From NCBI GenBank assembly GCA_023374045.1, contig CM041780.1, positions 173,605,339-173,669,338 of the forward strand: 64,000 nt of DNA. Direction: 5' to 3'. This stretch comes from Limonium bicolor. Taxonomy: Eukaryota; Streptophyta; Magnoliopsida; Caryophyllales; Plumbaginaceae. The stretch's first letter is position 1, and every line of letters begins with the position of its first letter. Under the pieces are notes generated by a model. The model had not been told where the DNA came from. It did not search any database and saw nothing but the letters and a program-made list of their open reading frames with translations. Positions 25,320 through 56,514 of this stretch are shown piece by piece. The translations under genes were made by a program, and so were the position numbers.

Positions 25320-25331
25320 GCTCTGATACCA
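25320..25331 (-). other. Primer-binding site of Copia-2 (tRNA-Met)
   Basis: The minus strand reads TGGTATCAGAGC directly inside the 5' LTR, the standard initiator-tRNA primer site. Confidence 0.92.
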
Positions 25332-27672: not shown

Positions 27673-28074
27673 ACTCCTCCACACTTATCTATTTGCTTGT
27701 CCTCAAGCAAAACTAGGAACCACATGAAGGAGGAATATTTTAAGCAAGCAAGTGTTCAAATGAATTCTTGGCTAGTTGTGAACAAAAAGGGTGGAAAAAT
27801 TCATGAGGAGTGCAAACCAACCTAATCATGGTGACAAAGGTGTGCCTAGGGAAAATAAAAAGATAGAATTTTGGGGCATGATCTAGAGTGCTTCAAAGTT
27901 CTTAAAGGTTATGGAACTTGGATAGATTTTACCATGGCCAACTTCTCTCAATAATGGGCATTAAGGATAAACAAAGGAAAATAGAGATTTACATTTGGTT
28001 CACTTTTGCAACAAGAGATGAGGAGAAGATATTGAGGCGTTTTTCATTTGCATTCAAGATCACTAAACTCTCAT
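27673..28074 (-). other. Outer element: polypurine tract and 3' untranslated region
   Basis: Begins with the polypurine tract on the minus strand and continues as internal non-coding sequence of the outer element (TTGCTTGTCCTCAAGCAAAA near 27693 is a small palindrome). It stops at 28074, where the CTCAT target duplication of the nested Gypsy element begins at 28070. No coding frame recognised. Confidence 0.6.
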
Positions 28075-31000
28075 TCAAATACCCCTAACCTTTAAATAAT
28101 TAAATGATGATAAATAAGTATTATTTAGGGGATTATTAAACTCTAATAAAAGTATATAAACACTTGGGCGTTAAAACGCACCTAAACTCCTTAAGGTAAA
28201 AAACGAGCGTTAAAGCCCGACCTTAAGCTAACCAAGTTATATAAGCTATAAAACTCATACGAAGTTAATCAAAGATCATATTATGACCTATAGAACACAA
28301 GTCCTCAGTTAGAGCTGAGTAAAAATACAATATGTCCGGGAGTTCCCTTAAGGGCCCCTTAAGGCCCGAAAGTCCCAGAAATACTTTATTAAATAAATTA
28401 AAGCATTACACTTCATTCTAAATACACAATAACACTTTAATGAACATTTAAGATGAAGTTATCAAGATAAATTCTCAGTTAAAGACAAAGTTCTTGGAGG
28501 TTCCCGATGAGGGCCCCATAAACCCCTGGGAGTGCCCCGGAGAGGTACCGAAGTGGCACAAACTCCAATATAAATCATTCTAAGAGTTCCTACCATAATA
28601 TTCATTATTACAAAGAGGGTTCTTGAGCTACTTTCTCAAAAATAAACAAAGTGCTCGGACGAATTTCTTAACGCTCCTTTTTGCCCCGGGAGTGTCCCGT
28701 TAGCCCGGAAATTGAGTTACAAGTTGTTATAACCCCATATAACTTAATATAACACCTTAACATATTATTATTGACTATAAACAATGTCAATAAACAATTG
28801 GAACTCATAGCGACTAATTAATTTCCAGAAAATTCTTAAAGCACAAAAACGCACCTTCGGGTGTCACAAAAACGCGTTCTACGCAATTGCCTTGAAGTTT
28901 TTGAGGAGCCACGATTTGATAATATTAAAAGGGGATAAATTGACCATCTAAATCAATTAATGCCAGTACTAAATTCATAGTACAAGTGGGGGCGATTTTT
29001 GGTTCAAAAAGGTACCTAAAATCAGCATTTTTACCTTAAAACTTTCACCTTTACCATGATGTATATGTACGTTAAAAGCTGGAAACTATTACAAATATTA
29101 GTATGATCTTAGTAAAATATAGTGAACAAAAATCAAATTAAAAATCAATCCCATTTGGCCTCTATATGGGGCGCCATTCTTTAGGGTCTGTTTTGACTAG
29201 ATTTTACTTCAAAAATTGCCTTATGGATGATGACTCACTTAGCATGTACCATGTGATAATATGTCAATTTAAATCAGTCAAATGGACCTCCATTTCAGAT
29301 TTCCCCTACAAGAAAACAATGAAGATTAGCTTATATTAAGATAATGGGATTAAAATGCAAATCTAGTCATACTTTTGACTAGGCAATTAAACAAAGAAAA
29401 CAAGTTGCTCCATTCGCATGTGATTGCCGATTTGAATCAGGAAAAGGGGGAGTATGATTGCTACTAAATTAATCAAATGGAACATGTACCTAACTAGCAT
29501 TATCTCTTGTTCAAAACAAACCAAAACCAACTTGTCTCTTATGGCACATGGTGGCCGATTTCAACAAAGAAGAAAAGGTGTATATGCCTTATTAAAATCA
29601 AGCTAAAATACCTACCTATCTAGCCATGTCCTAACGCCTTCAATCAGCAAGAGTCCAATGCCTATGTTCAGTCCATATGGCCGATTTTTACAAGGGAAAA
29701 GAAGGCAATTATAACATGTTAGTCACCTTAGGAAATAAAAGAAATACCTACCTATCTTGCTCTTTGTCTTCTTCTTTCAAATTGTCAAAGTAAGCTCCAT
29801 TATTTCCTTATAGCCAGCCGTAAGTCTAGTCCAATTAAGAGACTCTGGAGCTAAATAATGAAGTCAAATAAAACAAGACAAAGACATTAAATAATGACAT
29901 GTGACATACCAATTATTCCCATCTTGATTCAGCCTTGTCTTGCCTTAATACCCTACGTAAGCTTGTCATTCTTTCCTTGCCCATTTCACCGAATTGGTAA
30001 GCATCCTCTTGCTCTCTCTTTTCTTCTTCCTTTGCTAAGTTAATTTCTTAGAGCTTCTAAGCTCCATTAATGGTGTTTTAAGTTCTAACACCATTTTAAT
30101 GTAATTTCCTAGTTAAATCTCCTAAGACTTGAAGTAAGAAATCACCTAGCAACTTCTACAATTTTCGCCAAGCATAAGAGTTCCAAGGAGGTTCCTAGAT
30201 TCAACAACAACACAAGGAACAACAAAATCAAGTTAAGGTATAATTTTGTGTGTTGAAAATCCTAATTAATTACTTAAGCAATTTTTTAAAATTAAGAGCT
30301 TCTAAATCCATATTCTCTTCATTATTTCATGAAGGAAACTTGGATCTACAATCATCCCAAGGTGTTTCAAAAATACCTTGTTAAATTCCTAAGGTAAACT
30401 CTTGCAAAATTACTACAAATATTATTTATAAATTCCTGTTAGAAGTCTAACAAATGGATCTCCTACATATGTACAAGGAAGCCGAAATACCTTCATCAAA
30501 ATAGCATTTGAAGAGCTTGGAATTCAAGGAGAAATCAAGTACAAGAATTGTCTTGATTTAAGGAGTAAGTTATATAATTAAGATTTATTAAGCTTAAGTT
30601 TGTTTTAAGCTTCAAACTTTGGTATAAAAATTATGTATAACTTCTAATTATATTAGGCCGAAAAACATTGGATTAAAATGTCAAGAAAATAGTTTATAAC
30701 ATATAAGGTAAGATTATTACCTTAAGGTATATATTTATGTCACCAAAAATTTATTAAGATACATAAAAGTTCAAACCGAATACTCTAGGGATAAAATGTT
30801 CTATTTTGAGTTTATAATAATTCTAAGTCATTAACATAATTTTTAGAAGTGTTATATGGCTTATATACATTAATATGTATTTATTATAAGGTTTGAATCA
30901 AGTTTTAAAACCATATGGTAAAACATAATTAAAGCCGAGAACAATATGTGATGTTTGGTGAATTTTGAAATATATATAAGTGTATTAACTTATATTATAA

Positions 31001-33434
31001 ATTTTGGGAACATTAAAAATAGCTACAAGTATTTAAATGACTAGTTTATAAAGTTATGTGATTAAAATTGAATTTTGAAAAGTTTGGAGTGCTTAATAAT
31101 AATTGCCGAGAACATAAGGGGTTCTTTGGCATAATTATGATATAATATAAGGTAGGAATTAATATTATGAATTTTGGTGAATTTAAATAAGTGTTTAAGT
31201 ATTTAAATAACATTTTATAAAGTTTTGGGGCTATTTTGTGATTATTGAGAAGTTTGGGATATAACAGAGAATATACATGATTTTATGGGTATATTAAAGT
31301 ATTAATTATGAAATTAAGTCTTGGTCAAAGTGTTGACCAAAAACTTTGGGTTAAAATGATTAATGACATAAAATATTAAGTTTATAAAAGTTTTGGGGTG
31401 GTATATAATTTATGAAAGTTTAGTTATAAAAACCAAAAAGTAAGGGGCGAATTCATAATTAATAAAATTATAAGGGCCTTTCCGGTATTTTAAGAAATTA
31501 AATATTAAAACTATAGTTTATGAATTAATATGTAACTTATATAAAGTTCTAGGGTTAATTGTAAATAAAGGAAAGTTATTTATTAAAAACCGAAACTATG
31601 TGTGGTTATATGATAATTGCAAGAATTAGTGGGCACAAATTGTAATTTCCGAAAGTTGATATAGTTAATTAGTAAATTATAAAGTTATATGGTTATTTGA
31701 TAATTTATAAAAGTTGTTGGGTACAAAGTATAAATACCGAATTATTATGGTTGGTTTTGCAATTTAATAAAGAAAGAAATTAAGATTAAGTATATATAAT
31801 GTATTATGGTATATTATGGAGTATAATATAAAGTTTATAAAATAAAGGTGGTTATAATAAAAATAACCAAATGATATAATATAAAGAATAAGTGGAAACA
31901 ATTATGAAATATAATTAATGAGGAAAGGATATACCATATAATGGAAATTCATTCTTCACATGTGGATATCACATAAAATAACGAACTATTGAACTACCTA
32001 GAGTCACTGTAAAATAACAGGGGGAAATAAAGAACATACATGATTAGTATATTACAAGTATTAGTTCTACAGTGACAATACTGTAACATTTAGTGAACAG
32101 TGTATTAATATTACCCGTTATTGCATGTATAAATAACAGCGTACGGGAAAGAATTACTAGAACGTGAATTGTCAAGCTAGCTGTTACTACGGTGAACGGT
32201 ATGTTAATTGTGTGGTCTGAATGTGCTAAGGATTTTCCTAAGGTCCAGACGGGTATGCTTAATTGTTAAAGAACGATATCTGTGATTTTGTGTATATTAT
32301 TTTGTATACGGTATTGCTCACTGTTGCGATTACTCTACGCGAACGTCTTATGACTGGAAGTTTATACATCTAAACTGAAAAAAAAAGAGAGACTAACTGA
32401 CCTTTAGGTATTATTAAACCTAACTGATGGTCAACTGTTATAGTCTTAACTCAAGGATTGGATATTGTATCATTGACTAAAGGGCTAACTTATAAAGAGA
32501 GGAATCCAGACTGTTTCGACTTTTTGGTTGCGCATCGTGATCACTACGAGGGACTTCAATGGGGAGTCACTCAAGGGAATCCATTGTCCACATTTGACGA
32601 TGGCGGAGGGCACTGCCGTTGGTGCACAGGTTCGACCGGATCGGTCAATGTATTATCCAGGGCCATAAGGTCAGCTGGTAACGGTTCCATTGGGACCTAG
32701 GGGACTACTGTCCATTAATAAGTTTTAAGGGTTGTCTTGACATGACGCCTGAGGTGGAAATTAATTGGAAAATTTAAGTGGATGGTTAAAGGACAAGGGC
32801 CAGGAGGCCAACTAACAAGTACAGTTTAATACGCGTATCATATTGATTTCTGTTATGGATTGTTGGTATCTGAATATTGGTTGTGGTTATTATTATGCAC
32901 TGATGTTTGCAGGTGGACTATTGTGTGAATGTTTGATGTTACAGTTATTTTGTTATTATTGTAAACCGGTATATCATGTAAAAAATCTAATATCAAGATG
33001 GCTAAAACGACTTAAGGAATCTAGATGACTTAGGACTACATTTAGCATACCAGCATTTTGATTGCTGAGCCCTTCAATGGGCAAAACATTTCAGGTTACT
33101 GAAGAAGACTCAAGCCGGAGTGCGGGGAACAGGGTAGCTGCTGTGTTTTTAAACACTCTTAAGTTTTATTTGGTACTGTAATAAAGAGTTTGTTGTATTC
33201 AGTTAGTTGCTCATTTAGTTTGGATTTGGTCTATAATAATTAGAGTGCTTAGTATCTGTTCATCACAGCGTGAGGAGGTAAGGTTGTTGGATGAAGTAAG
33301 AATGCCTTGTTAGTCACAAGGGTGAGTAACGGCGTGTAACACCAAGGTTAGATAGTTTTTATTTTCCGCTGCGACATTATTTATTTTGCTACGACTTGCG
33401 ACGTTTTTAATAAGTTAGGATTAGGGGTGTTTCA
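28075..33434 (+). repeat. 5' LTR of the Tekay-like element
   Basis: 5360 bp, TCAAATACCCCTAACC (the usual TG altered to TC) to GGATTAGGGGTGTTTCA. It aligns along its whole length with the 3' LTR segments 40467-44774, 49798-50478 and 56147-56509. Mostly AT-rich and non-coding, except for a conserved GC-richer block at about 32405-32700. Confidence 0.9.
32405..32700 (+). other. Conserved LTR block with short open frame (copy 1)
   Basis: A segment of about 290 bp is nearly identical in this LTR, the 3' LTR (49798-50100) and the related solo LTR (55060-55372). It is much better conserved than the flanking LTR in the last of these. It contains an open frame (80 residues here, 89 and 81 in the others) with DCFDFLVAHRDHY, STFDDGGGHCRWCTGSTGSV and LSRAIRSAGNGSIG. 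No known domain. It could be a small element protein, but the position suggests a promoter, leader or RNA-structure element of the R/U5 region. Confidence 0.45.
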
Positions 33435-33438: not shown

Positions 33439-33450
33439 TGGTATCCGCTC
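33439..33450 (+). other. Primer-binding site of the Tekay-like element
   Basis: TGGTATCCGCTC lies four bases inside the 5' LTR. It matches the tRNA-Met primer site TGGTATCAGAGC only in its first seven bases, so it is a variant or mutated site. Confidence 0.6.
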
Positions 33451-33645: not shown

Positions 33646-34371
33646 ATGTCTAGAGTTGGAAGACCACGTGGAGGCGGCAGAGGACGAGGTGGAGCAGCAC
33701 CAGTAGATGTCCCAGAAGTACCAGGCCTAGCAGCGTTCATGGCAGCTTTCGCGCAACAACTAGGAGCTCAACTTACGGGAGCCATACCCCACCCGCCGCA
33801 GCCCAGGGAAACCAACTGGTTGAAGAGCGTTGCAGACGCTAGGGTACCGATTTACTCAGGGGAACCGGACCCCGCCGCGTTGGAAAAATTCATAGTGGAG
33901 CACCAGAAGGCCTTCAGAGCTGTGAGAGTACTAGAAAGCCAGAAGGTCGACATCGCCGCGTACAACCTGAAGGACGCAACTGATATCCGGTGGCGGTCAG
34001 TGGAGGGCCACCATAGAGCTACACCGGACTTTGGATGGACAGCGTTTGTGGAGGTGCTGCGAGAGAAATATTACCCTGAACACTTGAAGCAGAGGAAGCG
34101 ACAAGAGTTCGAGACCTTAATCCAGGGGAGCCAAACAGTCGACCAGTACTACGCACGATTTATCAACCTGCTAGATTACATACCAGGAGTCGACTACTCT
34201 GACACCGTCAAGATTCAGAAATTTAGGGGAGGTTTGCAATTTCGCATCCAGGGCGCCATGGGAGCAATACGTTTTGCTACCCTACAAGAATGCTATGATG
34301 CAGCATCGGTAACGGAGTTAATGCTTCAGTCTAGAGAAGAGGCGCAGGGGAAAGAAGAGGAAGAGTACTGA
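33646..34371 (+). CDS. gag: Tekay-like Gag, capsid part
   Basis: A 241-residue open frame starting MSRVGRPRGG, with a Gly/Arg-rich N-terminus and then the plant Gypsy capsid region: NWLKSVADARVPIYSGEPDP (about 57-76), KAFRAVRV, the FVEVLREKYYPEHLKQRKRQ segment (about 136-155), FETLIQGSQTVDQYYARF, and the VTELMLQ tail. It ends early at a stop with Glu-rich sequence. The zinc-knuckle part follows downstream in a different register, so the frame has been broken after residue 241. Confidence 0.88.
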   Translation: MSRVGRPRGGGRGRGGAAPVDVPEVPGLAAFMAAFAQQLGAQLTGAIPHPPQPRETNWLKSVADARVPIYSGEPDPAALEKFIVEHQKAFRAVRVLESQKVDIAAYNLKDATDIRWRSVEGHHRATPDFGWTAFVEVLREKYYPEHLKQRKRQEFETLIQGSQTVDQYYARFINLLDYIPGVDYSDTVKIQKFRGGLQFRIQGAMGAIRFATLQECYDAASVTELMLQSREEAQGKEEEEY

Positions 34372-34870
34372 AGGAGATGATGGTGGAGCAACCTCTGGCG
34401 GTTACTACAAAAGGGGAAGTAAGAAACCTTTATTTGAAGAAGGAGTACCATATATTACCTACACTTAGATTGGTCACTAACCTGAACCTTCAACAGGAGA
34501 TTTTTGATAAGAAGAAGGGGCGGAAGGATTTCCATGGTCAGAAGACGAAGGAGCAGGTTCCTCGTTTGACCGGCCGAACCATTGATGCACAACCACTAAG
34601 ATCGGCACCACCTAGGGGTAAGGATCCCACCTCCTACTTAACTAAGATATTTATTAGCTATACCTTTACTAAACCATGTTGTATGAACAATAGGCAATAA
34701 GCCAACCCAGCGCCACTACTACTGTAAGCGCTGTGGAAATGATCATCCAGGAGTAGACTGCGCAGGAAGAAAGGTGGAGTGTCGATATTGCAAGAAATAA
34801 GGCCATAGGGAGTATGAGTTTTTTCCAACCCAGCAAGCCGAGTATACAAGGGAGCTAGGGGTTCACAGAG
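34372..34870 (+). pseudogene. Tekay-like Gag C-terminal part with zinc knuckles
   Basis: Decayed continuation of gag. At about 34723-34760 the frame reads CKRCGNDHPGVDC, the family's first zinc knuckle, followed by CRYCKK and an in-frame TAA at about 34798-34800, then GHREYE. The second knuckle is thus interrupted by a stop. The upstream part (34377-34700) is open in another frame but has no recognised domain. Confidence 0.7.
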
Positions 34871-35218
34871 GCCACCAGCTACAGAGACTGGAGGACCCAG
34901 AGGAGGTTAGGCACCACAGGCTAACACCTATACTAGGGGACCGGGAGGACAGCCATCCTCATCCGGAGTCAGAAGGGGAAGGAGATAGTTCCAAGTAGAA
35001 ACACTTTGTACTCTGTGGGAACTTCAGGCGCTGAGGCTAGCGCTCAGCGCGAAACCGGTAAGCCTAGGACTTAAAACAAAAGCATGATGTTATGTATGTG
35101 TTTACAGTTATTCAGTCGATAAGACTTGTATGTGTTTTGTGTGAAATAAAATTTAGAGAGACCTAACTTAGGATCCTCTCGCCTAATAGGGTACTTCGAC
35201 ATTTGTTTTCCCATACCT
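34871..35218 (+). other. Spacer between gag and the AlkB-like ORF
   Basis: About 350 bp with no open frame. It contains an imperfect palindrome AGGCGCTGAGGCTAGCGCTC near 35027-35046, and AT-rich sequence with AATAAAA (about 35145-35151, poly(A)-signal-like). Elements of this clade normally join gag and protease closely, so this spacer together with the AlkB ORF looks like added sequence. Confidence 0.45.
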
Positions 35219-35928
35219 ATGAGTCCGAGATCACCTGACCCTATGAGCGAAGGTCAGGAATATCCAGAGAGAGAATGCCAAGTACTTCGACCCGGCATGA
35301 TCCTACTCAAGAAATATTTAACTCTAGATGATCAAATAGCTATTGTAAATGAATGTAGAACTTTGGGAATAGGCCTTGGAGGATTTTACACTCCAGGATA
35401 TGGTAGTGGGTCAAAACTCAAATTATATATGATTTGTATGGGTAAGGATTGGGATCCACAAACTAGGTTGTATAGTGAAGTAAGAAAGATAGATGGAACA
35501 CGAGTTCCTAGGATACCCGATAGTTTCCAAACTTTGGTGACAGAAGCAGTCAAGACTGCACAACAACTAGAAACCAACCCTATACCGGATATGGAAGCCG
35601 ACATTGGTATAGTAAACTTCTATGAAAAAGGGGGAAAACTTGGATTACACCAGGACCGAGATGAGACATCAGAGTCAATTACCAAAGGGATACCAGTTGT
35701 ATCATTCTCCATAGGAGACATGCAGAGTTTTTGTACGGTGATCAGAAGAGGATGGACAAGGCGAGAAAGATTATTTCGAAGTCTGGAGATGTATTGATAT
35801 TTGGTGGAGAATCTAGATTAGTGTACCATGGGATTAAGAGCATTAAGTTGAATACAACCCCATCAATCTTAGTAAATACTACCCATTTGAAGCCCGGATG
35901 GTTAAATTTGACGTTTAGGCAATATTGA
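35219..35928 (+). CDS. AlkB-like Fe(II)/2-oxoglutarate dioxygenase captured by a retrotransposon (one frameshift)
   Basis: The first frame (35219 to about 35725) starts MSPRSPDPMS and encodes the AlkB domain: LRPGMILLKKYLTLDDQI (about 23-40), GGFYTPGY (54-61), KDWDPQTRLY (76-85), IVNFYEKGGKLGLHQDRDE with iron ligands H144 and D146, and PVVSFSIGD (159-167). After a one-base slip near 35720 the second frame continues YGDQKR, SGDVLIFGGESRLVYHG (distal iron-ligand His) and ends LNLTFRQY with the 2-oxoglutarate-binding Arg. AlkB-family enzymes oxidatively remove methyl groups from RNA or DNA bases; order and ending are most like plant ALKBH1-type proteins. The domain is intron-free, has its own stop, and lies between gag and protease in the same orientation. 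Only one lesion, against many in the surrounding pol. The substrate is unknown. Confidence 0.85.
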
Positions 35929-35942
35929 TGTAATTATGGAGT

Positions 35943-36150
35943 TTGTATGTGAGAATCATTGGATTAAAGAATGGCATTTTAATACCTCTAAGACATGCAT
36001 TATCTTACGAATTGTTAACCCCAGGCCACGAGTCTAATGGAGGAGCAGTGCTGAATGTGTTGGACAAGACCGTGGCCAAGGATAAGGGGAATGTTATCAT
36101 GGGAACCTTCACAGTAAATGCGCGTGAGTGCATCGATACTGTTCGATTCG
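35943..36150 (+). pseudogene. Linker and start of protease, shifted frame
   Basis: The open frame at 35943-36209 includes LLTPGHESNGG and then [16 protein letters not shown], which resembles the stretch just before the Gypsy protease active site. The protease itself is read in another frame from about 36135, so a frameshift lies near 36130-36150. Confidence 0.6.
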
Positions 36151-37575
36151 GGAGCGTCTCATTCCTTTATATTCTCTACATTAGTAAGGAAGTTGGAGAC
36201 AACCCCTGAACCTCTCTTAGATTTCCTAGTCACATTACCGACGAAGGAGAGAGTGAGGTGCACGAAACTACACAAGGGAGTTCAGATTAACATCATGGAT
36301 GAAGAGTTTCAAGCGGACTTGATTGAAATGGATAATTTAGGATTTGACATCATCATGGGCATGGATTGGCTACAGAAGTACAAGGGACGACTACATTGCG
36401 CAGAGCATAGATTACTACTGAAGAGCCTGAAGGGCAAGATAGTTTTATATCACAGTATTCCAAAGGAACCTACTTTCAAGCTAGTATCTGCTATCACATT
36501 GATGAAGAAGGTGAAGAAGGGACAACCAGTCTATTTGTGCTATGTTCAGGACATGAGACATGAGGAGAAGACTCAGTCAAGTATACCCGTCGTTTCAGAT
36601 TTCCCAGATTTATTTCCAGAAGAGTTACCAGGGATGCCACCCAAGAGAGATGTGGAGTTCTCCATCGAATTATTACCAGGCACAAGGCCTATTGCTAAAG
36701 CACCATACATAATGGCACCAGCAGAGATGAAAGAGCTGAAGATTCAGTTAGAAGATCTGCTTGACAAAGGTTATATCAGACCGAGTGCATCACCATGGGG
36801 AGCACCAGTTTTATTTGTGAAAAAGAAGGATGGTAGCATGCGACTATGCATTGACTACAGGGAGCTTAACACAGTCACGGTGAAGAACAAGTACCCGTTA
36901 CCATGGATTGACGATTTGTTTGACCAGTTAAGAGGCGCTACAGTTTTCTCAAAGATTGATCTGAGATCAGGATACCACCAGATACGGATAGCTGATGAAG
37001 ACATAGAGAAGACAGCTTTTCGAACGCGCTACGGGCACTACGAGTTCACAGTTATGCCATTTGGCTTGTCGAACGCCCCAGCAATATTCATGGATCTTAT
37101 GAACTGGTTGTTCAGGGAGCAGTTAGACTCATCGGTAGTTGTATTCATCGACGACATTCTAGTTTATTCTAAGACCAAGGACGAGCATGAGGTGCATCTG
37201 AGGCAAGTTTTGCGGACCATGAGGGAAAATCAATTGTATGCCAAGCTTTCGAAGTGTGATTTTTGGTTAGACAGTGTATCTTTTCTAGGGCATGTAATAT
37301 CAGCCAGCGGTATATCTGTAGACCCTGTGAAGATTGAGGCAGTTAAGACTTGGCCGAGACCGAAGACAGTGACAAATATCTGGAGTTTCTTGGGATTAGC
37401 TGGTTACTATCGCAGATTTGTACAAGAATTCTCCAGACTGGCGAAACCTATGACTAACCTGATGAAGAAAGATTCCCCATTTGTATGGACAGCAGATTGT
37501 GAGCGTTCCTTTCAGACACTGAAGGACCTACTGACGTCGGCACCAATACTCACCATTCCAGAGGGGACCGACTGA
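36118..37575 (+). CDS. Tekay-like protease-reverse transcriptase segment of pol
   Basis: A 485-residue open frame. Aspartic protease: [11 protein letters not shown] (D10). Then [10 protein letters not shown], the [16 protein letters not shown] linker (about 166-181) and reverse transcriptase: [17 protein letters not shown] (about 235-251), [14 protein letters not shown] (D281), [22 protein letters not shown] and the catalytic FIDDILVYS box (343-351). The connection region includes [11 protein letters not shown] and the start of the tether to RNase H. The listed Met is internal. The frame ends at a TGA (37573-37575) just where RNase H (F.VYCDASG) begins. Confidence 0.92.
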
Positions 37576-38259
37576 TTTGAAGTATATTGCGATGCCTCAG
37601 GCACAGGGATAGAGTGAGTACTTATGCAGAATGGAAAGGTTGTTGCTTATGCGTCACGACAGTTGAAGAAGCATGAAGAAAATTACCCGACTCATGATTT
37701 GGAATTGGGAGCAGTTGTTTTTGCACTGAAGATCTGGTGACACTACTTATATGGAGTTACAGTAATAGTTTACTCAGATCACAAGAGCCTTCAACATTTA
37801 TTCACACAGAAGGAGCTGAACATGAGACAGAGGCGATGGGTCGAGTTTCTGAAGGACTACGACATCGACCTCAGGTACAAGGAGGGCAAGGCAAATGTTG
37901 TTGCTAACGCCCTGAGCCGTAGAGTTCATTCTTTATCTGCCATGACGGGAGACAACAACCTCATCGAGGAGGTACGTTGTGCTCAAGAAAATGACCAATA
38001 CATGAAGACTATCAGGCAGCAGTTGACTGACGGTATCTTTGAGAGACAGAAATATGATTTTGTACTCAGTGAAGACGGGTTAATCAGACTGAATGGCCGT
38101 TTGTGCATTCCAAAGTCCAGCCCAGACTTGAAGGAAAAGATATTGTAGGAAGCTCATGGCTCATCCTTATCAGTACACCCAGGGTCATCGAAGATGTACA
38201 AGGATCTGAAACTACATTTCTGGTGGAGCGGTATGAAGAAAGATGTTGCAGAGTTTGTG
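37576..38259 (+). pseudogene. Tekay-like RNase H and N-terminal integrase
   Basis: Continues pol with in-frame stops, including near 37606 and 37738. RNase H motifs: [42 protein letters not shown]. An open segment (37822-38148) carries [19 protein letters not shown] and VVANALSRR, then the spacer to integrase. The sequence after 38148 (HPGSSKMYKDL, FWWSGMKKDV) is the integrase zinc-finger region. It is interrupted by a hAT element at 38268. Confidence 0.85.
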
Positions 38260-38869
38260 GCCAGATGCAGGCGCGGCTCGGTAATTGTGGGGCCCTGTGC
38301 ATAATATTTTAACGGGGCCTTTATAAATTAAAACTTAAATATAAAATATAGAATTATTAATTTAATTGTGTCACAATATTATTCTATATTAAGTTATGTA
38401 ATGACATAAATGACAATTTAGACAAACTAGAAGAAATTTACTTATTATTGAATAATCACGTAAAAATATTGATTCTACTAGCATTTTACAACAAGCTCTT
38501 TGAAGAAATAAGTGTTATTATTTGATTGTATAGAAGTACGTAGTTGAAGAGATTGTGATTTACTAGGTAGAAAAAAGAGGGAAGATCAATATATCTATAT
38601 CTTTTTAAATAGATATTATTGGATATAAACAGTTTCATCGATAATTTTATTTGTCTGCTAAAAGACATTAATAGTATTAAATTCAACCAACTGTTATTAT
38701 ATGTTATAATGAATATGTTAGAAACCTATGTAACCTTTTAATTATATAAACTACAAGATAATTGACTCTACTTAAAAAAAATAGGTCCCAAAAATTGGGG
38801 GCCCCCTAAAATTGGGGCCCTGTTCCTTGTCACTTGTTGGACATGCTAAGAGCCACCCATGGCCAGATG
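38260..38869. mobile_element. Non-autonomous hAT element in the integrase zinc finger
   Basis: A 594-bp element (38268-38861) flanked by the 8-bp duplication GCCAGATG (38260-38267 and 38862-38869). Its ends are CAGGCGCGGCTCGG and, inverted, CATGGGTGGCTCTTAG, typical hAT-type termini. GGGGCCCTG palindromes lie just inside both ends. The interior is AT-rich with no transposase. Excising it with one GCCAGATG rejoins the integrase zinc-finger codons. Confidence 0.9.
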
Positions 38870-39977
38870 TATGATGTGTTAGAAAGTGAAATTTGAGCAC
38901 CGGAGACCGGGCGGTTTAGTACAGCCGATGCCCATTCCATATTGGAAGTTCGAGGATATATCCATGGATTTCGTAGTAGGTCTTCCACCGACTAGAGGAG
39001 GTGCTGACATGATATGGGTCATCGTCGACAGACTGACAAAGGTAGCTAAGTTCATTCCTATCAAGGACACATGGAAAGTTCCCAAATTGGCGGATATTTT
39101 CCAGAGAGAGATCATCAGACACCACGGTGTACCTAAGTCTATAGTGTCAGATAGAGATTCAAGGTTTGTTTCCAGATTTTGGCAGCAGGTTCAGGAGGCA
39201 TTGTGTACGAAGATGAAGCTAAGTACAACCTTTCATCCATAGACAGATGGACAGAGTGAGAGAACAATTCAAACGTTAGAGGACATGCTTAGAGCTTGTG
39301 CCTTGGATTTTCAGGAAAGCTGGATAGATCGACTACATTTGATCGAGTTTGCCTACAACAACAGCTATCATGCATCCATTTAGATGCCACCATTTCAGGC
39401 ATTGTACGGCAGACCATGCAGAACACCACTATGTTGGGACGAGGCCAGTGAGAACATCATCTTAGGGCCAGAGTACCTAGACCAGATGAAGGAAGATATT
39501 GTGCAAATACGCAAAAACATGATGATAGCCCAGGACAGACAGAAGTCTTATGCTGATGTCCGTAGGAGAGACCTCGAGTTCGCAGTAGGCGATCGAGTCT
39601 TCCTTAGAGTTTCACCTATGAAGGGAGTTTTCATATTTGGGCAAAAGGGCAAGCTTAGCCCGAAATATGTAGGACCGTACCTCATTACGGAGCGAGTGGG
39701 CCCATTAGCCTACAGATTAGATTTACCCGTTGAGCTTGGGAGAGTGCATAATGTGTTTCACATTTCTCAGCTAAAGCTGTATGTACCTCACCCATCGCAT
39801 ATCTTAGAGCCCGAGACACTCGAGCTAGATCCTACACTTAGATATGAGGAGACCCCAGTTCGCATTTTAGATTCCAAGACTAGGGAGACCAGGAACAAGA
39901 CCATTAGAATAGTTAAGGTTCTGTGGTCAAACCACGACATTGAGGAGGCGACATGGGAGTTAGAAGACTCCATGTGA
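38870..39977 (+). pseudogene. Tekay-like integrase with chromodomain-like tail
   Basis: Begins after the hAT element with the Cys pair of the zinc finger and an in-frame stop, then an open segment KFEHRRPGG...YWKFEDISMDFVVGLP (first core Asp), IVDRLTKVAKFIP and SIVSDRDSRF (second Asp). After stops near 39240 and 39380 it continues [17 protein letters not shown] (core Glu), AYNNSYHAS, then the 197-residue open frame 39384-39977. That frame has ALYGRPCRTPLCW, VFLRVSPMKGV, LSPKYVGPYLI and VFHISQLKLYV, and ends in a degenerate chromodomain (VLWSNHDIEEATWELEDSM). That tail places the element near the Tekay/Del chromoviruses. Confidence 0.88.
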
Positions 39978-40466: not shown

Positions 40467-43400
40467 TGAAATACCCCTAACCTTTAAATAATTAAATAAT
40501 CATAAATAAGTATTATTTAGGGGATTATTAAACTCTAATAAAAGTATATAAACACTTGGGTGTTAAAACGCACCTAAACTCCTTAAGGTCAAAAACGAGC
40601 GTTAAAGCCCGACCTTAAGCTAACCAAGTTATATAAGCTATAAAACTCATACGAAGTTAATAAAAGATCATTTTATGACCTATAGAACACAAGTCCTCAG
40701 TTAGAACTGAGTAAAAATACAATATGTCTGGGAGTTCCCTTAAGGGCCCCTTAAGGCCCGAAAGTCCCAGAAATACTTTATTAAATAAAGTAAAGCATTA
40801 CACTTCATTCTAAATACACAATAACACTTTAATGAACATTTAAGATGAATTTCTCAAGATAAATTCTCAGTTAAAGACAAAGTTCTCGGAGGTTCCCGAT
40901 GAGGGCCCCATAAACCCCCGGGAGTGCCCCAGAGAGGTACCGAAGTGGCACAAACTCCAATATAAATCATTCTAAGAGTTCCTACCATCAATATTCATTA
41001 TTCCAAAGAGGGTACTCAAGCTACTTTCTCAAAAATAAACAAAGTGCTCGGACGAATTTCTTAACGCTCCTTTTTGCCCCGGGAGTGTCCCGTTAGCCCG
41101 GAAATTGAGTTACAAGTTGTTATAACCCATATAACTTAATGTAACACCTTAACATATTATTATTGACTATAAAAAATGTTAATAAACACTTGGAACTCAT
41201 AGCGACTAATTAATTTCCAGAAAATTCTTAAAGCACAAAAACGCACCTTCGGGTGTCACAAAAACGCGTTCTACGCAATTGCCTTGAAGTTTTTGAGGAG
41301 CCACGAGTTGATAATCTTAAAAGGGGATAAATTAAACATCTAAATAAATTAATTCCAGTACTAAATTCATAGTACAAGTGGGGGCGATTTTTGGTTCAAA
41401 AAGGTACCTAAAATCAGCATTTTTACCTTAAAACTTTCCACCTTTTACCATGATGTATATGTACCAATTAAATGCTGGAACCTATTACACATATTAGTAT
41501 GATCTTAGTACAACATAGTGTAACAAAAAAAATTAAAATCTATCCCCATTTGGCCTCTATATGGGGCACCATTTAGGGTCTGTTTTGACTAGATTTTACT
41601 TCAAAATTGCCTTATGGAATGATGAATCACCTTAGATGTACCATGTGATAATATGTCAATTTAAATCAGTAAATGGACCTCCATTGCAGATTTCCCCTAC
41701 AAGAAAACAATGAAGATTAGCTTATTAAGATAATGGGATGCAAATCATAGTCTATTTTTGACTAGGCAATTAAACAAAGAAAACAAGTTGCTCCATTGGC
41801 ATGTGATTGCCGATTTGAATCAGGAAAAGCGGGAGTACGATTGCTAATAAATTAATCAAATACAATGAACATGTACCTAACTAATCTCTTATCTCTTGTT
41901 CAAGAACAAACAAAAATCAACTTGTCTCTTATGGCACATGGTGGCCGATTTCAAAAAGAAGAGAAGGTGTATATGCCTTATTAAAATCAAGCTAAATACC
42001 TACCTATCTAGCCATGTCCTAACGCCTTCAACCAGCAAGAGTCCAGCCTATGTTCAGTCCATATGGCCGATTTTTACAAGGGAAAAGAAGGCAATTATAA
42101 CATGTTAGTCACCTTAGGAAATTAAAAGAAATACCTACCTATCTTGCTCTTTGTCTTCTTCTTTCAAATTTTCAAAGTAAGCTCCATTATTCCTTATAGC
42201 CAGCCGTAAGTCTAGTCCAATTAAGAGACTTTGGAGCTAAATAATGAAGTCAAATAAAACAAGACAAAGACATTAAATAATGACATGTGACATACCAATT
42301 ATTCCCATCTTGATTCAGCCTTGTCTTGCCTTAATACCCTACGTAAGCTTGTCATTCTTTCCTTGCCCACTTCACCGAATTGGTAAGCATCCTCTTGCTC
42401 TCTCTTTTCTCTTCCTTCCTTTTAAGTTAATTTCTTAGAGCTTCTAAGCTCCATTAATGGTGTTTTAAGTTCTAACACCATTTTAACGTAATTTCCTAGT
42501 TAAATATCCTAAGTCTTGAAGCAAGAAATCATCTAGCAACTTCTACAAATTTTCGCCAAGCAGAAGAGTTCCAAGGAGGTTCCTAGATTCAACAACAACA
42601 CAAGGAACAAACAAGATCAAGTTAAGGTATATTTTTGTGTTGAAAATCCTAGTAAATTACCTTAAGCAATTTTCAAAAATTAAGAGCTTCTAATTCCATA
42701 TTCTCTTCATTATTTTCATGAAGGAAACTTGGATCTACAATCATCCCAAGGTGTACCAAAATACCTTGTTAAATTCCTAAGGTAAACTCTTGCACAATTA
42801 CTACAAATATTATTTATAAATTCCTGTTAGAAGTCTAACAAATGGATCTCCAACATATGTACAAGGAAGCCGAAATACCTTCATCAAAATAGCATTTGAA
42901 GAGCTTGGAATTCAAGGAGAAATCAAGTACAAGAATTGTCTTGATTTAAGGAGTAAGTTATATAATTAAGATTTATTAAGCTTAAGTTTGTTTTTAGCTT
43001 CAAACTTTGGTATAAAAATTATGTATAACTTCTAATTATATTAAGGCCGAAAAACATTGGATTAAAATGTCAAGAAAATAGTTTATAACATATAAGGTAA
43101 GATTATTACCTTAAGGTATATATTTATGTCACCAAAAATTTATTAAGATACATAAAAGTTCAAACCAAATACTCTAGGGATAAAATGTTCTATTTTGAGT
43201 TTATAATCATTCTAAGTCATTAACATAATTTTTAGAAGTGTTATATGGCTTATATACATTAATATGTATTTATTATAAGGTTTGAATCAAGTTTTAAAAC
43301 CATATGATAAAACATAATTAAAGCCGAGAACAATATGTGATGTTTGGTGAATTTTGAAATATATATAAGTGTATTAACTTATATTATAAATTTTGGGAAC

Positions 43401-44771
43401 ATTAAAAATAGCTACAAGTATTTAAATGACTAGTTTATAAAGTTATGTGGTTAAAATGTGAATTTTGAAAAGTTTGAAGTGCTTAATAATAATTGCCAAG
43501 AACATAAGGGGTTCTTTGGCATAATTATGATATAATATAAGGTAGGAATTAATTTATGAATTTTGGTGAATTTAAATAAGTGTTTAAGTATTTAAATAAC
43601 ATTTTATAAAGTTTTGGGGCTATTTTGTGATTATTGAGAAGTTTGGGATATAACCGAGAATATACATGATTTTTATGGTATTAAAGTATTAATTATGAAA
43701 TTAAGTCTTGGTCAAAGTGTTGACCAAAAACTTTGGGTTAAAATGATTTATGACATAAAATATTAAGTTTATAAAAGTTTTGGGGTGGTTATATAATTTA
43801 TGAAAGTTTAGTTATAAAAACCGAAAAGATTAAGGGGCGAATTCATAATTAATAAAATTATAAGGGCCTTTCCGTATTTTAAGAAATTAAATATTAAAAC
43901 TATAGTTTATGAATTAATATGTAACTTATATAAGTTCTAGGGTTAAATTGTAAATAAAGGAAAGTTATTTATTAAAACCGAAACTATGTGTGGTTTATGA
44001 TAATTGCAAGAATTAGTGGGCACAAATTGTAATTTCTAAAATTTGATATGGTTAATTAGTAAATTTAAAAGTTATATGGTTATTTGATAATTTATAAAAT
44101 TTGTTGGGTACAAAGTATAAATACCGTATTATTATGGTTGGTTTTGCAATTTAATAAAGAGAGGAATACAGATTAAGTAATATAATGTATTATGGAGTAT
44201 CATATAAAGTTTATAAATAAAGGTGGTTATATAAAAATAACCAAATGATATAATATAAATAATAAGTGGAAACAATTATGAATATATAATTAATGAGGAA
44301 AGGATATACCATATAATGGAAATTCATTATCACATGTGGATATCACATAAAATAACGAACTATTGAACTACCTAGAGTCACTGTAAAATAACAGGGGGAA
44401 ATAAAGAACATACATGATTAGTATATTACAAGTATTAGTTCTACAGTGACAGTACTGTAACATTTAGTGAACAGTGTATTAATATTATCCATTATTGCAT
44501 GTATAAATAACAGCGTACGGGAAAGATTACTAGAACGTGAATTGTCAAGCTAGCTGTTACTACGGTGAACGGTATGTTAATTGTGTGGTCTGAATGTCCT
44601 AAGGATTTTCCTAAGGTCCAGACGGGTATGCTTAATTGTTAAAGAACGATATCTGTGATTTTGTGTATATTATTTTGTATACGGTATTGCTCATACACTG
44701 TTGCGATTACTCTACGCGAACGTCTTATGACTGGAAGTTTATACATCTAAACTGAAAAAAAAGAGAGACTA

Positions 44772-47700
44772 ACTCACTACAAGAAAAACAGTAGTATCAG
44801 AGACGGAAAATTCCTACGGAATTTTTCCGTCTGTAAAAAACCCTTTTACCTACGGAATTTTCTATGTATTTCCTACGGATATAGTATCAGACGAAATAAA
44901 CAATTATAGTGATATTATCTACGGAATCTGGACACATTAGACGGAAATATTTCTGTAGGTAATATTCTAACCGCGAAAATGAAATTTTTGAATCGAAACA
45001 ATTACTGTAGATGAAATTTCCAAAACTTTTACCTGCGAAACTAACTCAAAATTCCGTAGGAAATACTGCATATAACTTGAAAACAACAGTGTTTTATTCT
45101 CTTCCATTGCTCGCGATCCTAACTGGCGATAAGGAACATATACACTCTGCGCCTTCACTCTCTTCTCTCTTGCTGCTCGCAACCCTAACTGGCGATAAGG
45201 AACATTCATCGTCTTTATCTTCTTTCATTGCTCGTGATCATAACTGGAGATAACGAACATATGCACTCTGCCTGCCTTTCCTTCTCTTCTGGTGTTTGCG
45301 CCTTGTAGAATTAAATCTGGACTGCTTCAACACACTGCAAGCGGTAGAGACACAGGTAATGTAATCGAGCTTATCTATTCTGGATTATCTTGGTAGAAAT
45401 TTGTTTAATTTTGTTTATTGTCATCTGAATATTGCAACCCTAACTGGTGGTTAGGAACATACAACCTTGCACCTTCATTCTATTCTGGTGCTTGCGCCTT
45501 CATTCTCTAATATATGTAGTTTTAAAATTCAGCATTTTGCTCGATATTATACTGTCATTTGGTGTGTAACTTTTCATTGGCTTCTCATTTTTTGGCTGAC
45601 GGTGAAGTGTGTTGGTTGGGTATAATTAGCTACAGCTTTCTTGTGGTTGTGTCACGAGCTACTCCGTAGCTACCCTGCATCAGAGCTGTTCCGAAGTTTG
45701 CTGTACATATGAGAATGTGGTGCAAGTGTTGAGGTGCTGTTTGATTTTAAGCTATTGCGACTATCTGTAATTTTTTTACCAATTCAGTATTTCCTGGTTT
45801 GAGAACAACTCTTTTTCTGAAGTGTTATAGTAGCTAAATGGTCTTGTTTTTTTGGGCATTCAGCCATGTTTGGGTCTGTTAGGCAATGAGACGACATCAG
45901 TACGGTGGACATGCATTTTTTGATTTCTGTAGCTGTAGCAGATTGCAAGCTGTACACAGCACAATTTTTTTTAATTTCTGTAGTAGTAGCAAATTGAAAC
46001 TCTAACTGGAGAATGAAGGCAATGTTTATGTAGCAGAGATAAATCTGATTTGTATTGCATTTTGTTGATGTTTCTGTACCAAAATGCCCAACACTTTAGT
46101 TGAGTGAGTGAAAATAGACGATGACAATGAAGCTGTAGTTTATCAGAAAAAACAAACCAACAGGGGAAACAAACAAAGAAGCAGAATCGTTGTTTGGACC
46201 AACTTGAGGAATCGATGTATCCATGAGAGAGGCAGCACAACAGTGATTACGTTAACTTGAAGGAAGATAAGATTACTATAGAAAACTAAATCCCCTACTA
46301 CTGTAAATAAAAAGTATAGATTAGGAAAGCCATAGTGATTAGAATAGAAATGTCAAATGTTTAATTCCAAGGTCTCGTTTTTTTCTCACCTTATCATACA
46401 ACTATATTAGTGTTAGATGCCATACTTACTGACAGGTAAATTCATTTCACGGATAGGAATAGGTTACTAGTAGTATCAAATACTGTAACACTTAACTTTG
46501 GTAAGTAGCATTGCTTGCAGTTAAACCAATCGTGCTTTGTTAAGAGAGGTTGGCGCAAGAGGGCGGGTGTTGTAGGATCACCTTCATGCGTAACTACATC
46601 GCTTTGGCCACCAACTGGTTAGCACTCAAAGGTTGCTTGTCTCTCCCAGTGTTCTTGTTTGATAAATATGTTTCCTCTATAGTTTTTTTTTATTTTTCAA
46701 AATATGTATCACTAGAAAATTGCTGACTTTACTCTGTTGAGCTTCAAATATAGCCTTCAAGTAAACGCACAGAAGCCTAATTATGAGATATTAAATAGAA
46801 ACATTTACGAGTGGCAGATGACTACAATGTAATCCAACTCAATCAAGTTCCAAACAGATTTTTGGAGCATGCAGATGTAAAATAATATAATATAAAATAG
46901 AAGGAATGATCACCTGGCCAGTATCTTTATCATGATTATCTGCATCTAAATTATTTTCGTGAGTGTTGCCCAACTTTCTTGATCTTATAGCATGAAGATA
47001 AGCCTGAGAAGGAGCAGCACTACTAGATGCGACAGACACAGCCAGATGACCAAGAGAACCTCATCTCTCCCATACTGCTTTTATTGTTTCCAACATCTAA
47101 AATCTTTATAATTTCTGTGGTCCAGCTACAATTTGAGACTGCATCTTCAGTTTTTTTATGGTTGCATACTAGTGGCATGAAGGGAACTCACCATTTGCTG
47201 TTTCAGATTTTGGACTATTATTGTTTTCCAGGCAAGTGTTTGCTCCCTGTTTTGTGATTAATATTCTGCTCTTCGATCCATTAGACTAGTGATTTTGAAC
47301 ATGGCTCCTATGAAAGTCTAAGTTTAGTGGGATAGTTTCTATAATTTTTGTTGATTTTGGCTTTTAGCGGCAACATAATCACCATGTTAGAGATGAGAGG
47401 AGACAGTAACCCCACTTTTTTTTCTTTTATCTCATAATTTATGCATTTAGATTGTTTATTTTTAGACTGCTGCATTGAGTTTGTAGGGAAAACATCAACT
47501 TGACTCCTTCTATCCCGTCTCTCTGGAGTTACGGGTGGATTATTGGAAGTAGGTATGCATTACTTGACCAAAAAAAGTATGTGTGCATTTAGTATTGGTT
47601 TGTAGATCTATATCCCTTTTATTTGCTTCAGCTAATGGCAAAAATGGGTGTATTTGGATAGATATTTGCTCAAATACAATTTACATGATTGGTGTTTGAT

Positions 47701-49800
47701 ATTTCCAGGTTTCTGAGATAGCTAGACGTTTGCTCAGTTACGATTTTGTAATGAAGTGATGAAGACGGTAGAACTTTACATCTAGATTAACTTCTTATAG
47801 AAGATGAGTTTCTACCCAATGACATGAATTAACCTTTTTGGCATTTTTCTAGAGTATAGAGTTCTCCTGGTAATTTGATATCATCAAGCTTTGCCTTGGG
47901 TTGAAACAAACTCGTATGTTTATGTGAAGATAGAAAAACGATAGTAGTATATAATGCTATGGGAAATTGGTGTAATTTGATATCATCAAGCTTTGCATTG
48001 GGTTGAAACAAACTAGTATGTTTATGTGAAGATGTGGTTCAGTTTTGAATGTTTTTCAGATTTCTATTGCTCTTATATGCAAGGCCTTGCTTGTTGGCTT
48101 GTTTGATTCATAATCATAAATAACAATTGAGAGGTGTTGCAATTTTTATATATGCACTGAAATTGAAACATCCTTCAATAAACTAAACAACACATTCTGT
48201 ATTATCTATTCTACGATCTCTTATGCCTTATGAATTTCAGTATCTATTTATCTGCCAAGTGGTGTGCTTCATACTTCATGAGGTTGTATATTGCAGTTGC
48301 TCTTTTAATCTAAATAGCACATTCTGTAGTGAAGTTCACTTCAGCGTGAAGATGGAACCAACCTCTTTTGCCTCTTTCTTGATTTTGTCATAGAAGGAGG
48401 GAATCCTGCAGAACCTTCAAAAAAGAAGAACATACTGATTAATGATACTGTGTTCAAGTTAGGTGTAGACACACTAGCTAGTAGCTGTGCACGGAAGTGA
48501 AGTTCTTCATTGCTCTTATATAGGTGTAAACAGCACAACTAGTATGTTCATTGCTCTTCATTGGTTTCAATTTTGTTCTATTCTGATTTCACCTAGTTGT
48601 CACTGAAATGAATAGATCTATTAGAAGTTAAGACTACTAATTTCTTATTTCATATGAAGACTCCAGCTTCCTCTGGTCTTGAATCTGATGCTCTCCCATT
48701 TATTGTGATTCTCTATACTTCATTAATTTTATTTTATATCTCTTCATTACTATTCCAGACTAGCATTGCTTGCGTATGCACCTATTTACTGCTAAATGGC
48801 ATGTGACTTATCTTTATTGATGATCATCGCTTGGTTGTTGTCCATGAGCTAGTAGTTGTGCATGGAAGTGAAGTTCTTCATATTTAAGTAGTCATGTTTT
48901 TTTTTATTTTGCAGATTTGAAGTATTGAATTCAAGGGACGTGAAGCTGTCAAGTGAAGAATATGTGTTTTCTATATGATGCAATTGTGAAAATGATTGTC
49001 AGTCATCGGTAAACTTGAATACTGTGAACATTTTGGTAGGATTTGGGTGTTGTGTAGTATTCGAATTCTTATCAGAAACGTCTTATAGTTTCCTTTTCAT
49101 GGAAACATTTGCTAGCTAGTTATGAAGAATATTTCGGGGAATGTTGGAACTATGGATAAAACTGCTTTAGCTATGAATGTAAAATGTCACAGGTGTTTCA
49201 GCAATGTAATAGTTGTTTATATATATATTCAGGTTATATGTGTCTTGTTTGTGAAAATTATTAGGTACACATTTCGTAGGTGATATAACTTATTGTTGAA
49301 GATTTCGTAGGTAATAAGGTTATCTGAGACGGAATTTTCCGTAGTGATATGTAATTCTGAGGTGAGACATTTCGTAGGTAATAATATCTGAAACATAAAA
49401 ATTCTGTAGGTGATAACCATTATCTGAGACGGAACGTTTCGTAGGTGATACAATTTTCTGAGATAGAGATTTCCGTAGGTGATAACCATTCTCTGAGACG
49501 GAACCTTCTGTAGGTGATATTATTTTCTGAGACGGAAATTTCCGAAGGTGATAATTATTTTCAGAGACGGAACATTCCGTAGCTGATAACTATTTTCAGA
49601 GACGGAAAATTCCGTCTGTAAAAGTTAAGAATATCACCGACGGAATTCGTTTTCACAGACGGAATAGTATTACCGACCCGATTATTACAGACGGAATTTT
49701 CCTACGGAATTTTCCGTCTGTGATTGTCATTACATACGGAAATTTGTCTTTTACATACGGAATATTCCGTCTCTGATACTGCTGTTTTCTTGTAGTGACT
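44772..49800. mobile_element. Non-autonomous CACTA element (CACTA-2) in the 3' LTR
   Basis: A 5023-bp element (44775-49797) starting CACTACAAGAAAAACAGTAG and ending CTGTTTTCTTGTAGTG, flanked by ACT (44772-44774 and 49798-49800). The uninterrupted target is visible in the 5' LTR (AACTGACC near 32395). Both subterminal regions are dense in GACGGAA and TTCCGTAGG motifs. The interior has no transposase frame. Internal repeats of AACCCTAACTGGCGATAAGG lie near 45115-45240. The body has splice-like and T-rich tracts but no long open frame, so any transcript would be non-coding or strongly decayed. Confidence 0.93.
49255..49790. repeat. Subterminal repeat array of CACTA-2
   Basis: About a dozen direct copies of a unit of roughly 38-45 bp built on TCTGAGACGGAA...TTTCCGTAGGTGATAA. 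Each has an inner palindrome (GACGGAAnnTTCCGTC-like). A shorter cluster of the same motifs in inverse orientation lies at 44800-45060. Such arrays are the expected binding sites for the CACTA regulatory transposase protein. Confidence 0.85.
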
Positions 49801-50100
49801 GACCTTTAGGTATTATTAAACCTAACTGGTGGTCAACTGTTATAGTCTTAACTCAAGGATTGGATATTGTATCATTGACTAAAGGGCTAACTTATAAAGA
49901 GAGGAATCCAGATTGTTTCGACTTTCTGGTTGCGCATCGTGATCACTACGAGGGACTTCAATGGGGAGTCACTCAAGGGAATCCATTGTCCACATTCGAC
50001 GATGGCGGAGGGCACTGCCGTTGGTGCACAGGTTCGACCGGATCGGTCAATGTATTATCCAGGGCCATAAGGTCAGCTGGTAACGGTTCCATTGGACCCA
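49798..50100 (+). other. Conserved LTR block with short open frame (copy 2)
   Basis: Counterpart of 32405-32700 in the 3' LTR, directly after CACTA-2. The open frame is 89 residues because of a small indel near its end. Same Cys/Gly-rich core (DGGGHCRWCTGSTGS). Confidence 0.45.
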
Positions 50101-50473
50101 GGAGACTACTGTCCATTAATAAGTTTTAAGGGTTGTCTTGACATGACGCCTGAGGTGGAAATTAATTGGAAAATTTAAGTGGATGGTTAAAGGACAAGGG
50201 CCAGGAGGCCAACTAACAAGTGCAGTTTAATACGCGTATCATATTGATTTCTGTTATGGATTGTTGGTATCTGAATACTGGTTGTGGTTGTTATTATGCA
50301 CTGATGTTTGCAGGTGGACTATTGTGTGAATGTTTGATGTTACAGTTATTTCTGTTATTATTGTAAACCGGTATATCATGTAAAGAATCTAATATCAAGA
50401 TGGCTAAAATGACTTAAGGAATCTAGATGACTTAGGACTACATTTAGCATACCAGCATTTCGATTGCTGAGCC

Positions 50474-56151: not shown

Positions 56152-56514
56152 ATGGGCAAAACATTTCAGGTTACTGAAGAAGACTCAAGCCGGAGTGCGG
56201 GGAACAGGGTAGCTGCTGTGTTTTTAAACACTCTTATGTTTTATTTGGTACTGTAATAAAGAGTTTGTTGTATTCAGTTAGTTGCTCATTTAGTTTGGAT
56301 TTGGTCTGTAATAATTAGAGTGCTCAGTATCTGTTCATCACAGCGTGAGGAGGTAAGGTTGTTGGATGAAGTAAGAATGCCTTGTTAGTCACAAAGGTGA
56401 GTAACGGCGTGTAACACCAAGGTTAGATAGTTTTTATTTTCCGCTGCGACATTATTTATTTTGCTACGACTTGCGACGTTTTTAATAAGTTAGGATTAGG
56501 GGTGTTACACTCAT

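Follow-up and report, generated by a model that had tools for sequence, protein, structure and literature searches.

An ALKBH1-type AlkB gene under purifying selection in a predicted gag-pol intron of a Ty3/gypsy retrotransposon lineage of Limonium bicolor

The stretch of DNA studied here, called the window, comprises 64,000 nucleotides from Limonium bicolor (assembly GCA_023374045.1, contig CM041780.1, positions 173,605,339 to 173,669,338 of the forward strand). It contains a Ty3/gypsy long terminal repeat (LTR) retrotransposon in which an open reading frame (ORF) for a dioxygenase of the AlkB type lies between gag and protease. We found that this AlkB is, on the evidence of genome-wide sequence comparison, a real, abundant, selected and inherited module of the element. 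New in the present study is that the AlkB ORF sits in a predicted phase-1 intron between gag and pol, whose GT and AG ends are conserved in three subfamilies.

The AlkB ORF and its relatives in the genome

Against PF13532, whose cut-off is 31.2 bits, one frame piece of the window AlkB scored 76.2 bits (E = 5.2e-21) and the other 48.9 bits (E = 1.2e-12), and the two tblastn pieces join at 35722-35731, the site of a single frameshift. Gag, protease-reverse transcriptase (PR-RT), RNase H, integrase core and integrase C-terminal domains surround it on the same strand according to Pfam profiles, within an element bounded by a target-site duplication (TSD). An earlier note, made from the letters of the window, had placed an ALKBH1-like AlkB domain with one frameshift at 35219..35928 of a Gypsy element, between gag and protease and in their orientation; these matches, and the comparison with rice OsALKBH1 given below, bear this out. 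Its start at the ATG at 35219 did not hold, as a host-like N-terminal F-D-I-C stretch and a likely exon start lie 5' of that codon, at about 35190. The ligands of the HxD...H motif (H181, D183 and H241) were invariant in an alignment of 40 related proteins, and R265 and R271 were each conserved in at least 90%. The note's HxD, distal His and C-terminal Arg were found in the window, the last for the second Arg of the pair; the first (R265 position) is Trp. Because of the frameshift and this Trp, the window copy is very likely inactive.

The same Trp occurs at a second locus, which is about 99% alike to that of the window (G000 C5:254302001-254324000; L061-L063 and L032) and in which the AlkB frame is open. 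We considered L032 as a sister copy of the element and rejected this, because the 99% identity extends into the 5' flank and a nested CACTA transposon; it is a segmental duplicate.

The top solved relative by sequence was rice OsALKBH1 (5xeg, E = 1.7e-50). An AlphaFold model of an intact relative, P0001 (mean predicted local distance difference test score 87.0, predicted template modelling (TM) score 0.85), matched 5xeg at TM 0.93 by target length, and 5xeg headed the fold list. ALKBH5 structures ranked 47 or lower by fold, and none was in the sequence list at E 0.01. By sequence and predicted fold, the element AlkB is of the plant ALKBH1 type and not of the ALKBH5 type. It shares with plant ALKBH1 (OsALKBH1 and ALKBH1D-type host proteins) the fold, the catalytic residues and the F-D-I-C stretch, whereas the element forms have a shorter loop ahead of the beta strand carrying the Fe ligand, have an intronless domain and form a clade of their own. 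This clade (17 rows, branch support 100/100) comprised 12 element copies from subfamily A, which is the window element's own, and the further subfamilies B and C, together with five database proteins (P0001, P0069, P0071, P0073 and P0156), against 47 host-type proteins; the tree of 64 rows was midpoint-rooted, its bootstrap was not fully settled, some rows were short, and the host-type proteins were hand-picked from the matches with no ALKBH5 row. As P0001 reached at best 74% identity in this genome (among 141 scored), the AlkB element lineage probably exists in another species too. A scan of IMG/VR with P0001 gave five stretches that matched a pattern, none of them a relative.

The codon pattern for LGLHQDxDE occurred 18,613 times (9,406 + 9,207) in the 2.92-Gb genome, whose C5 carries the window, and the reversed control 0 times. 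A genome search with PF13532 gave 38,326 loose candidates, from which the best 150 were scored and 30 loci fetched. All 150 were full length and above the cut-off, and 149 had no internal stop, an intactness that is biased because the best-scoring candidates are those that get scored. PR-RT lay 3' of AlkB on the same strand in all 30 fetched loci, and gag or the zinc knuckle lay 5' in 29 (knuckle in 29, capsid part in 27); in L019, neither was within the stretch fetched. A search with PR-RT gave 109,136 loose candidates, of which 88 were scored and the best 30 fetched, including the window and L032. In these RT-sampled loci AlkB was full length in 22, partial in four and absent from four. Gag was matched in 22 of them, and in every one of these at least 90% of the AlkB length is present. 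The four AlkB-free loci (L054 and L057-L059) were considered as spliced copies and rejected; since gag is also gone and the break points vary (36001-36089), they are truncations or rearrangements.

Same-strand series of AlkB at a spacing of about 10.0 to 10.6 kb were observed at C1:1430339-1461742, C1:4328127-4348980, C1:7387131-7418993 and C1:497439466-497470353 (G000), as if they were head-to-tail LTR-internal units.

The element AlkB is under purifying selection. Of 60 loci, the 36 whose own frame is open were compared by codon likelihood over 252 of 274 codon columns. This gave a dN/dS ratio (omega) of 0.197, with a log likelihood (lnL) of -5614.7 against -5922.7 at omega 1 (transition/transversion ratio, kappa, fixed at 2 for omega 1); picking open frames may depress omega somewhat. 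Within subfamilies, omega was 0.232 in A (8 copies), 0.321 in B (13 copies) and 0.196 in C (4 copies), and omega 1 cost 91, 37 and 16 lnL units, respectively (kappa fixed at 3.1). Relative to the L032 frame, the AlkB of 23 A copies from the RT sample, including three partial ones, differed per site by 0.065 at the first, 0.054 at the second and 0.160 at the third codon position; the values for PR-RT were 0.038, 0.038 and 0.138 (28 copies). Some figures speak against constraint on AlkB. In the RT-sampled A copies, frameshift gaps numbered 0.572 per 100 codons in AlkB and 0 in PR-RT, and stops 0.375 and 0.169, the PR-RT sample being biased to open frames because PR-RT was the search query. The spacer 3' of AlkB differs at 0.082, below the 0.165 of AlkB third positions, and being less diverged than these it is no clean neutral yardstick; AlkB positions 1 and 2 together were below the spacer divergence in 18 of 20 copies.

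Predicted introns and copies with a joined gag and pol

In subfamilies A, B and C, the gag frame reaches a phase-1 GT and then a stop within a few codons, and the protease frame starts after a phase-1 AG. Removal of the predicted intron between them (intron 3) would join gag to pol in frame. With splice-site anchors of up to 3 mismatches, the donor GT was present in 22 of 22 anchored A copies (of 30), 26/26 B copies and 3/3 C copies (of 4), and the acceptor AG in 25 of 27 anchored A copies (of 30), 25/26 in B and, by eye, 4/4 in C. A looser count, in which some anchors were misplaced, gave 17/22, 22/26 and 4/4 for the donor in A, B and C, and 26/30 and 17/26 for the acceptor in A and B. The A donor 8-mer was identical in 20 of 20 aligned copies, against averages of 33 to 49% for 8-mers of the neighbouring regions; the A pol acceptor 8-mer was identical in 16/24.

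Two further introns are predicted within gag. The GT and AG of intron 2 were found in 25/26 and 24/25 anchored copies of B and in 3/3 and 3/3 of C, and by eye alone in A. Those of intron 1 were found in 22/23 and 26/26 anchored copies of B and in 2/2 and 3/3 of C. Intron 1 occurs in B and C (L003 and L012) but not in A, where the frame is continuous (window 34270-34300), suggesting intron loss or gain between the subfamilies.

Inside intron 3, an AG that shares the phase of the gag donor directly precedes the G-x-[FY]-x-I-C motif of AlkB in 21 of 23 A copies, 26 of 26 B copies and 4 of 4 C copies in which this region was located (23 of the 30 A copies), and the A AlkB acceptor 8-mer was identical in 17/20. 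An in-frame stop lies within 60 bases upstream of this AG in 52 of 53 copies. In all four C copies, the first in-frame Met is 42 residues past the core start, which suggests that no start codon for the subfamily C AlkB lies ahead of the core domain.

We searched the genome for the predicted spliced junction with a query of 15 gag bases and 16 pol bases of L003, allowing up to 3 mismatches, and found it 11 times; the reversed control gave 0. Three of these copies were read, and an open frame spans the junction in all of them. L065 and L066 are without all three introns; in L066, introns 1 and 3 are gone at the predicted sites, and intron 2 ends at an AG that lies 3 bases further 3' than the predicted one. 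L064 is without intron 3 alone: it retains introns 1 and 2 and lacks the AlkB intron, corresponding to 1253-2316 of L003. No AlkB match was found in the fetched stretches of these three copies. The simplest reading is that the junction copies would derive from reverse-transcribed RNA, fully and partly spliced.

The host element and its surroundings

The features of the element are listed in Table 1. End motifs and LTR BLAST define a single Ty3/gypsy insertion (28075-56509) with CTCAT on both outer flanks, and its 3' LTR is split into three pieces by later insertions. The LTRs differ by a Kimura two-parameter distance of 0.030 (5313 sites), which at 1.3e-8 substitutions per site and year corresponds to an insertion age of about 1 Myr. 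The primer-binding site is Met-tRNA-like and matches TGGTATCAGAGC at 9 of 12 bases. The chromodomain match is weak (PF00385, 17.2 bits, E = 0.0048, below the cut-off of 25.1). The domain order gag, protease, RT, RNase H and integrase, as well as the 5-bp TSD, are those of the Tekay type, and Tekay-type RT and gag relatives are about 60% identical to the element; the Tekay label, which the earlier note had given and which RT sequence resemblance would suit, is a tentative one.

Table 1. Features of the AlkB-bearing element in the window
Feature	Position	Strand	Evidence
TSD CTCAT, 5' side	28070..28074	.	Read from sequence; identical five bases after 56509
5' LTR, 5360 nt	28075..33434	+	BLAST against 3' LTR pieces; end motif
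Primer-binding site, Met-tRNA-like, imperfect	33439..33450	+	Read from sequence
gag, capsid part	33646..34371	+	PF03732 53.4 bits; PF19259 34.9 bits
Predicted gag intron 2 (GTAAGG...AATAG), phase 1	34618..34693	+	Read by eye in the window
gag zinc-knuckle (CCHC) part, in-frame stop in window copy	34702..34842	+	tblastn of P0183
Predicted intron 3 (gag-pol), 967 nt, phase 1, containing the AlkB ORF	35058..36024	+	Conserved GT/AG; subfamily B junction copies
Candidate alternative 3' splice site, AG at 35188-35189, phase of gag donor	35183..35190	+	Conserved AG
AlkB (ALKBH1-type) ORF with own stop and one frameshift at about 35722-35731	35190..35928	+	PF13532; tblastn
Protease and reverse transcriptase, open ORF 36118-37575	36025..37575	+	PF08284 86.9 bits; PF00078 132.4 bits
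RNase H part	37741..38148	+	PF17917 38.3 bits
Integrase core part	38883..39242	+	PF00665 30.3 bits, slightly below cut-off 32.6
Integrase C-terminal SH3-like region and weak chromodomain	39384..39977	+	PF24626 83.9 bits; PF00385 17.2 bits
3' LTR, first piece	40467..44777	+	BLAST against 5' LTR
3' LTR, second piece	49798..50478	+	97.9% to 32396-33076
3' LTR, third piece, then CTCAT	56147..56509	+	98.6% to 33072-33434

A CACTA-type transposon (window 44775-49797), which starts with CACTACAAGAAAAA, is nested in the 3' LTR. The third part of that LTR holds a further insertion, a relative's solo LTR with a 5-bp duplication and a likeness of about 82% (window 50479-56146). Pol is interrupted by a 593-bp insert with GGGGCCC-rich ends (window 38267-38860), which is not in L034 or L057-L059. 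Elsewhere in the window, on the minus strand, 270-bp direct repeats 98-99.6% alike flank long ORFs at 5782-10991 and 18292-25602, and these ORFs look Ty1/copia-like by eye.

Production and role of the element AlkB

In the account that we propose, a chromovirus-type LTR retrotransposon lineage would have captured a plant ALKBH1-type dioxygenase. Purifying selection would have preserved this enzyme across at least three subfamilies and during a massive increase in copy number. One gag donor would be joined either to the AlkB acceptor, giving Gag-AlkB, or to the pol acceptor, giving Gag-Pol; in the window, Gag-AlkB would need the excision of 132 nt (35058-35189). The part of Gag-AlkB that the gag exons encode, which includes capsid and zinc knuckle, would carry the demethylase to element RNA or cDNA in the particle. 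There it would strip N6-methyladenosine (m6A), 1-methyladenosine (m1A), 3-methylcytidine (m3C) or DNA N6-methyladenine (6mA), marks that would either make the nucleic acid accessible to host control or obstruct reverse transcription.

That an AlkB core was captured, selected and nested in an intron appears to us nearly certain. The whole account, from capture, selection and intron nesting to Gag-AlkB and Gag-Pol splicing and demethylation of element nucleic acid, is rather probable. A stricter version is tentative, with almost as much to be said for it as against it: Gag-Pol and Gag-AlkB would be mutually exclusive products of one gag donor, with the demethylase packaged with element RNA, and the switch would stem from a host ALKBH1 exon trapped in the gag-pol intron.

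The Gypsy_Pa_2799 element of Phalaenopsis is likewise a plant Ty3/gypsy element with a captured AlkB, a large genome share and conserved catalytic residues, and its AlkB demethylates m6A in single-stranded RNA in vitro (PMC9289625). However, the orchid AlkB is of the ALKBH5 type, in a Tat/Ogre-like element of 25.5 kb with dual RNase H and 6.4-kb LTRs, where it forms a separate ORF2 beside one gag-pol ORF (PMC9289625). The present element has an ALKBH1-type AlkB, a single RNase H match, a chromovirus-type integrase SH3 region and 5.36-kb LTRs, with the ORF in an intron between gag and protease; the orchid combination of an ALKBH5-type domain in a separate ORF beside an uninterrupted gag-pol, on a Tat/Ogre backbone, is not that of this element. 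Because enzyme type, element lineage and architecture differ, the AlkB capture here looks like one separate from the orchid capture. In Ogre elements, an intron between GAG-PROT and RT, on average 274 bp, is excised from part of the transcripts, joining gag to the rest of the polyprotein (PMC6317226). The present element likewise has conserved predicted sites that would join gag and pol in frame, whereas its intron 3 separates gag from protease, measures about 1 kb and contains an enzyme ORF, and B and C have two further gag introns. Tekay (Del) chromoviruses, reported from seed plants alone, share the domain order of the element, and the available text on them mentions no enzyme ORF inside the element (PMC6317226). 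By description, plant RNA viruses with an acquired AlkB, for which RNA repair has been proposed, are a further case of a plant parasite with such an enzyme (via PMC9289625). Open-licence full texts gave, for other AlkB-bearing retroelements or chromoviruses with such introns, the orchid case and citing papers alone (PMC11963269 cites it in its reference list alone), and described neither a retroelement whose polyprotein intron houses an enzyme gene nor a comparable Gag-enzyme fusion.

Several observations pull away from the proposed account. The window AlkB is itself broken, with a frameshift and an active-site substitution, as expected if a host ALKBH1 cDNA had inserted by chance into one element and had no role. 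The presence of AlkB at the same position in relatives, the number of motif copies and the purifying selection refute this explanation, to which we assign practically no weight. The earlier note had named such a single copy, a chance processed pseudogene with its own flanking repeat, as the case that would overturn its view, and had asked for the same position in related copies and a dN/dS below 1; the view of AlkB as a module of the element survives on all these points, the counter-defence or RNA-repair role that the note suggested is a possible one, and what it missed were the intron architecture and the orchid precedent (PMC9289625). Two differences from the query recur in all 11 junction copies, which may therefore go back to a few events, and the related knuckle-to-protease frames of P0193 (Beta vulgaris) and P0183 (ENA) are uninterrupted. 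Copies free of the AlkB intron could accordingly represent an older intronless state rather than reverse-transcribed spliced RNA, and the inserts would not have to function as spliceosomal introns. The loss of intron 3 alone in L064, whereas L065 and L066 lack all three, the GT/AG ends and phase conserved across three subfamilies, and the A donor 8-mer, which is the most conserved 8-mer of the region, make this quite improbable.

A stronger competitor, though still an unlikely one, is that AlkB was captured, selected and nested in an intron as proposed and is translated as a stand-alone protein from RNA that keeps the intron, by an internal start, re-initiation or its own promoter, without any Gag-AlkB. 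The ORF has its own stop, and in the five A and five B copies checked the first in-frame Met precedes the core, so that a stand-alone start is possible in these subfamilies; the orchid AlkB, too, is a separate ORF (PMC9289625). Against this stand the position of the first Met inside the core in all C copies and the AG in the gag-donor phase just ahead of AlkB, conserved in three subfamilies. Gag-AlkB by alternative splicing is for these reasons the reading that we prefer, on the pattern of predicted splice sites. As for the target, the enzyme might act on host nucleic acid or proteins and so alter host silencing indirectly. Loss of rice ALKBH1 has effects on chromatin-marked genes, and 6mA is a substrate of the enzyme, which prefers single-stranded or unpaired DNA (PMC10469495); the orchid authors also admit cellular RNA as a target (PMC9289625). 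If a Gag fusion is made, the RNA of the element itself would be the likelier target, and we consider a host target improbable. In Arabidopsis, ALKBH9B strips m6A from ONSEN RNA and thereby enables mobilisation (PMC12786077). For an ALKBH1-type enzyme, RNA repair or action on element cDNA may be as likely as m6A removal.

The element appears to represent a second AlkB capture by LTR retrotransposons of plants, in which both the enzyme type and the element lineage differ from those of the orchid case. This suggests that such elements benefit from an activity that takes methyl groups off nucleic acid. Given thousands of copies in several subfamilies of one genome, it becomes testable whether adenine methylation is a means by which plants restrain retrotransposons, and the predicted intron-nested design, together with natural copies without the AlkB intron, provides built-in comparisons. 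An element with its own selected AlkB thus makes it testable what a retrotransposon gains from a demethylase-type enzyme.
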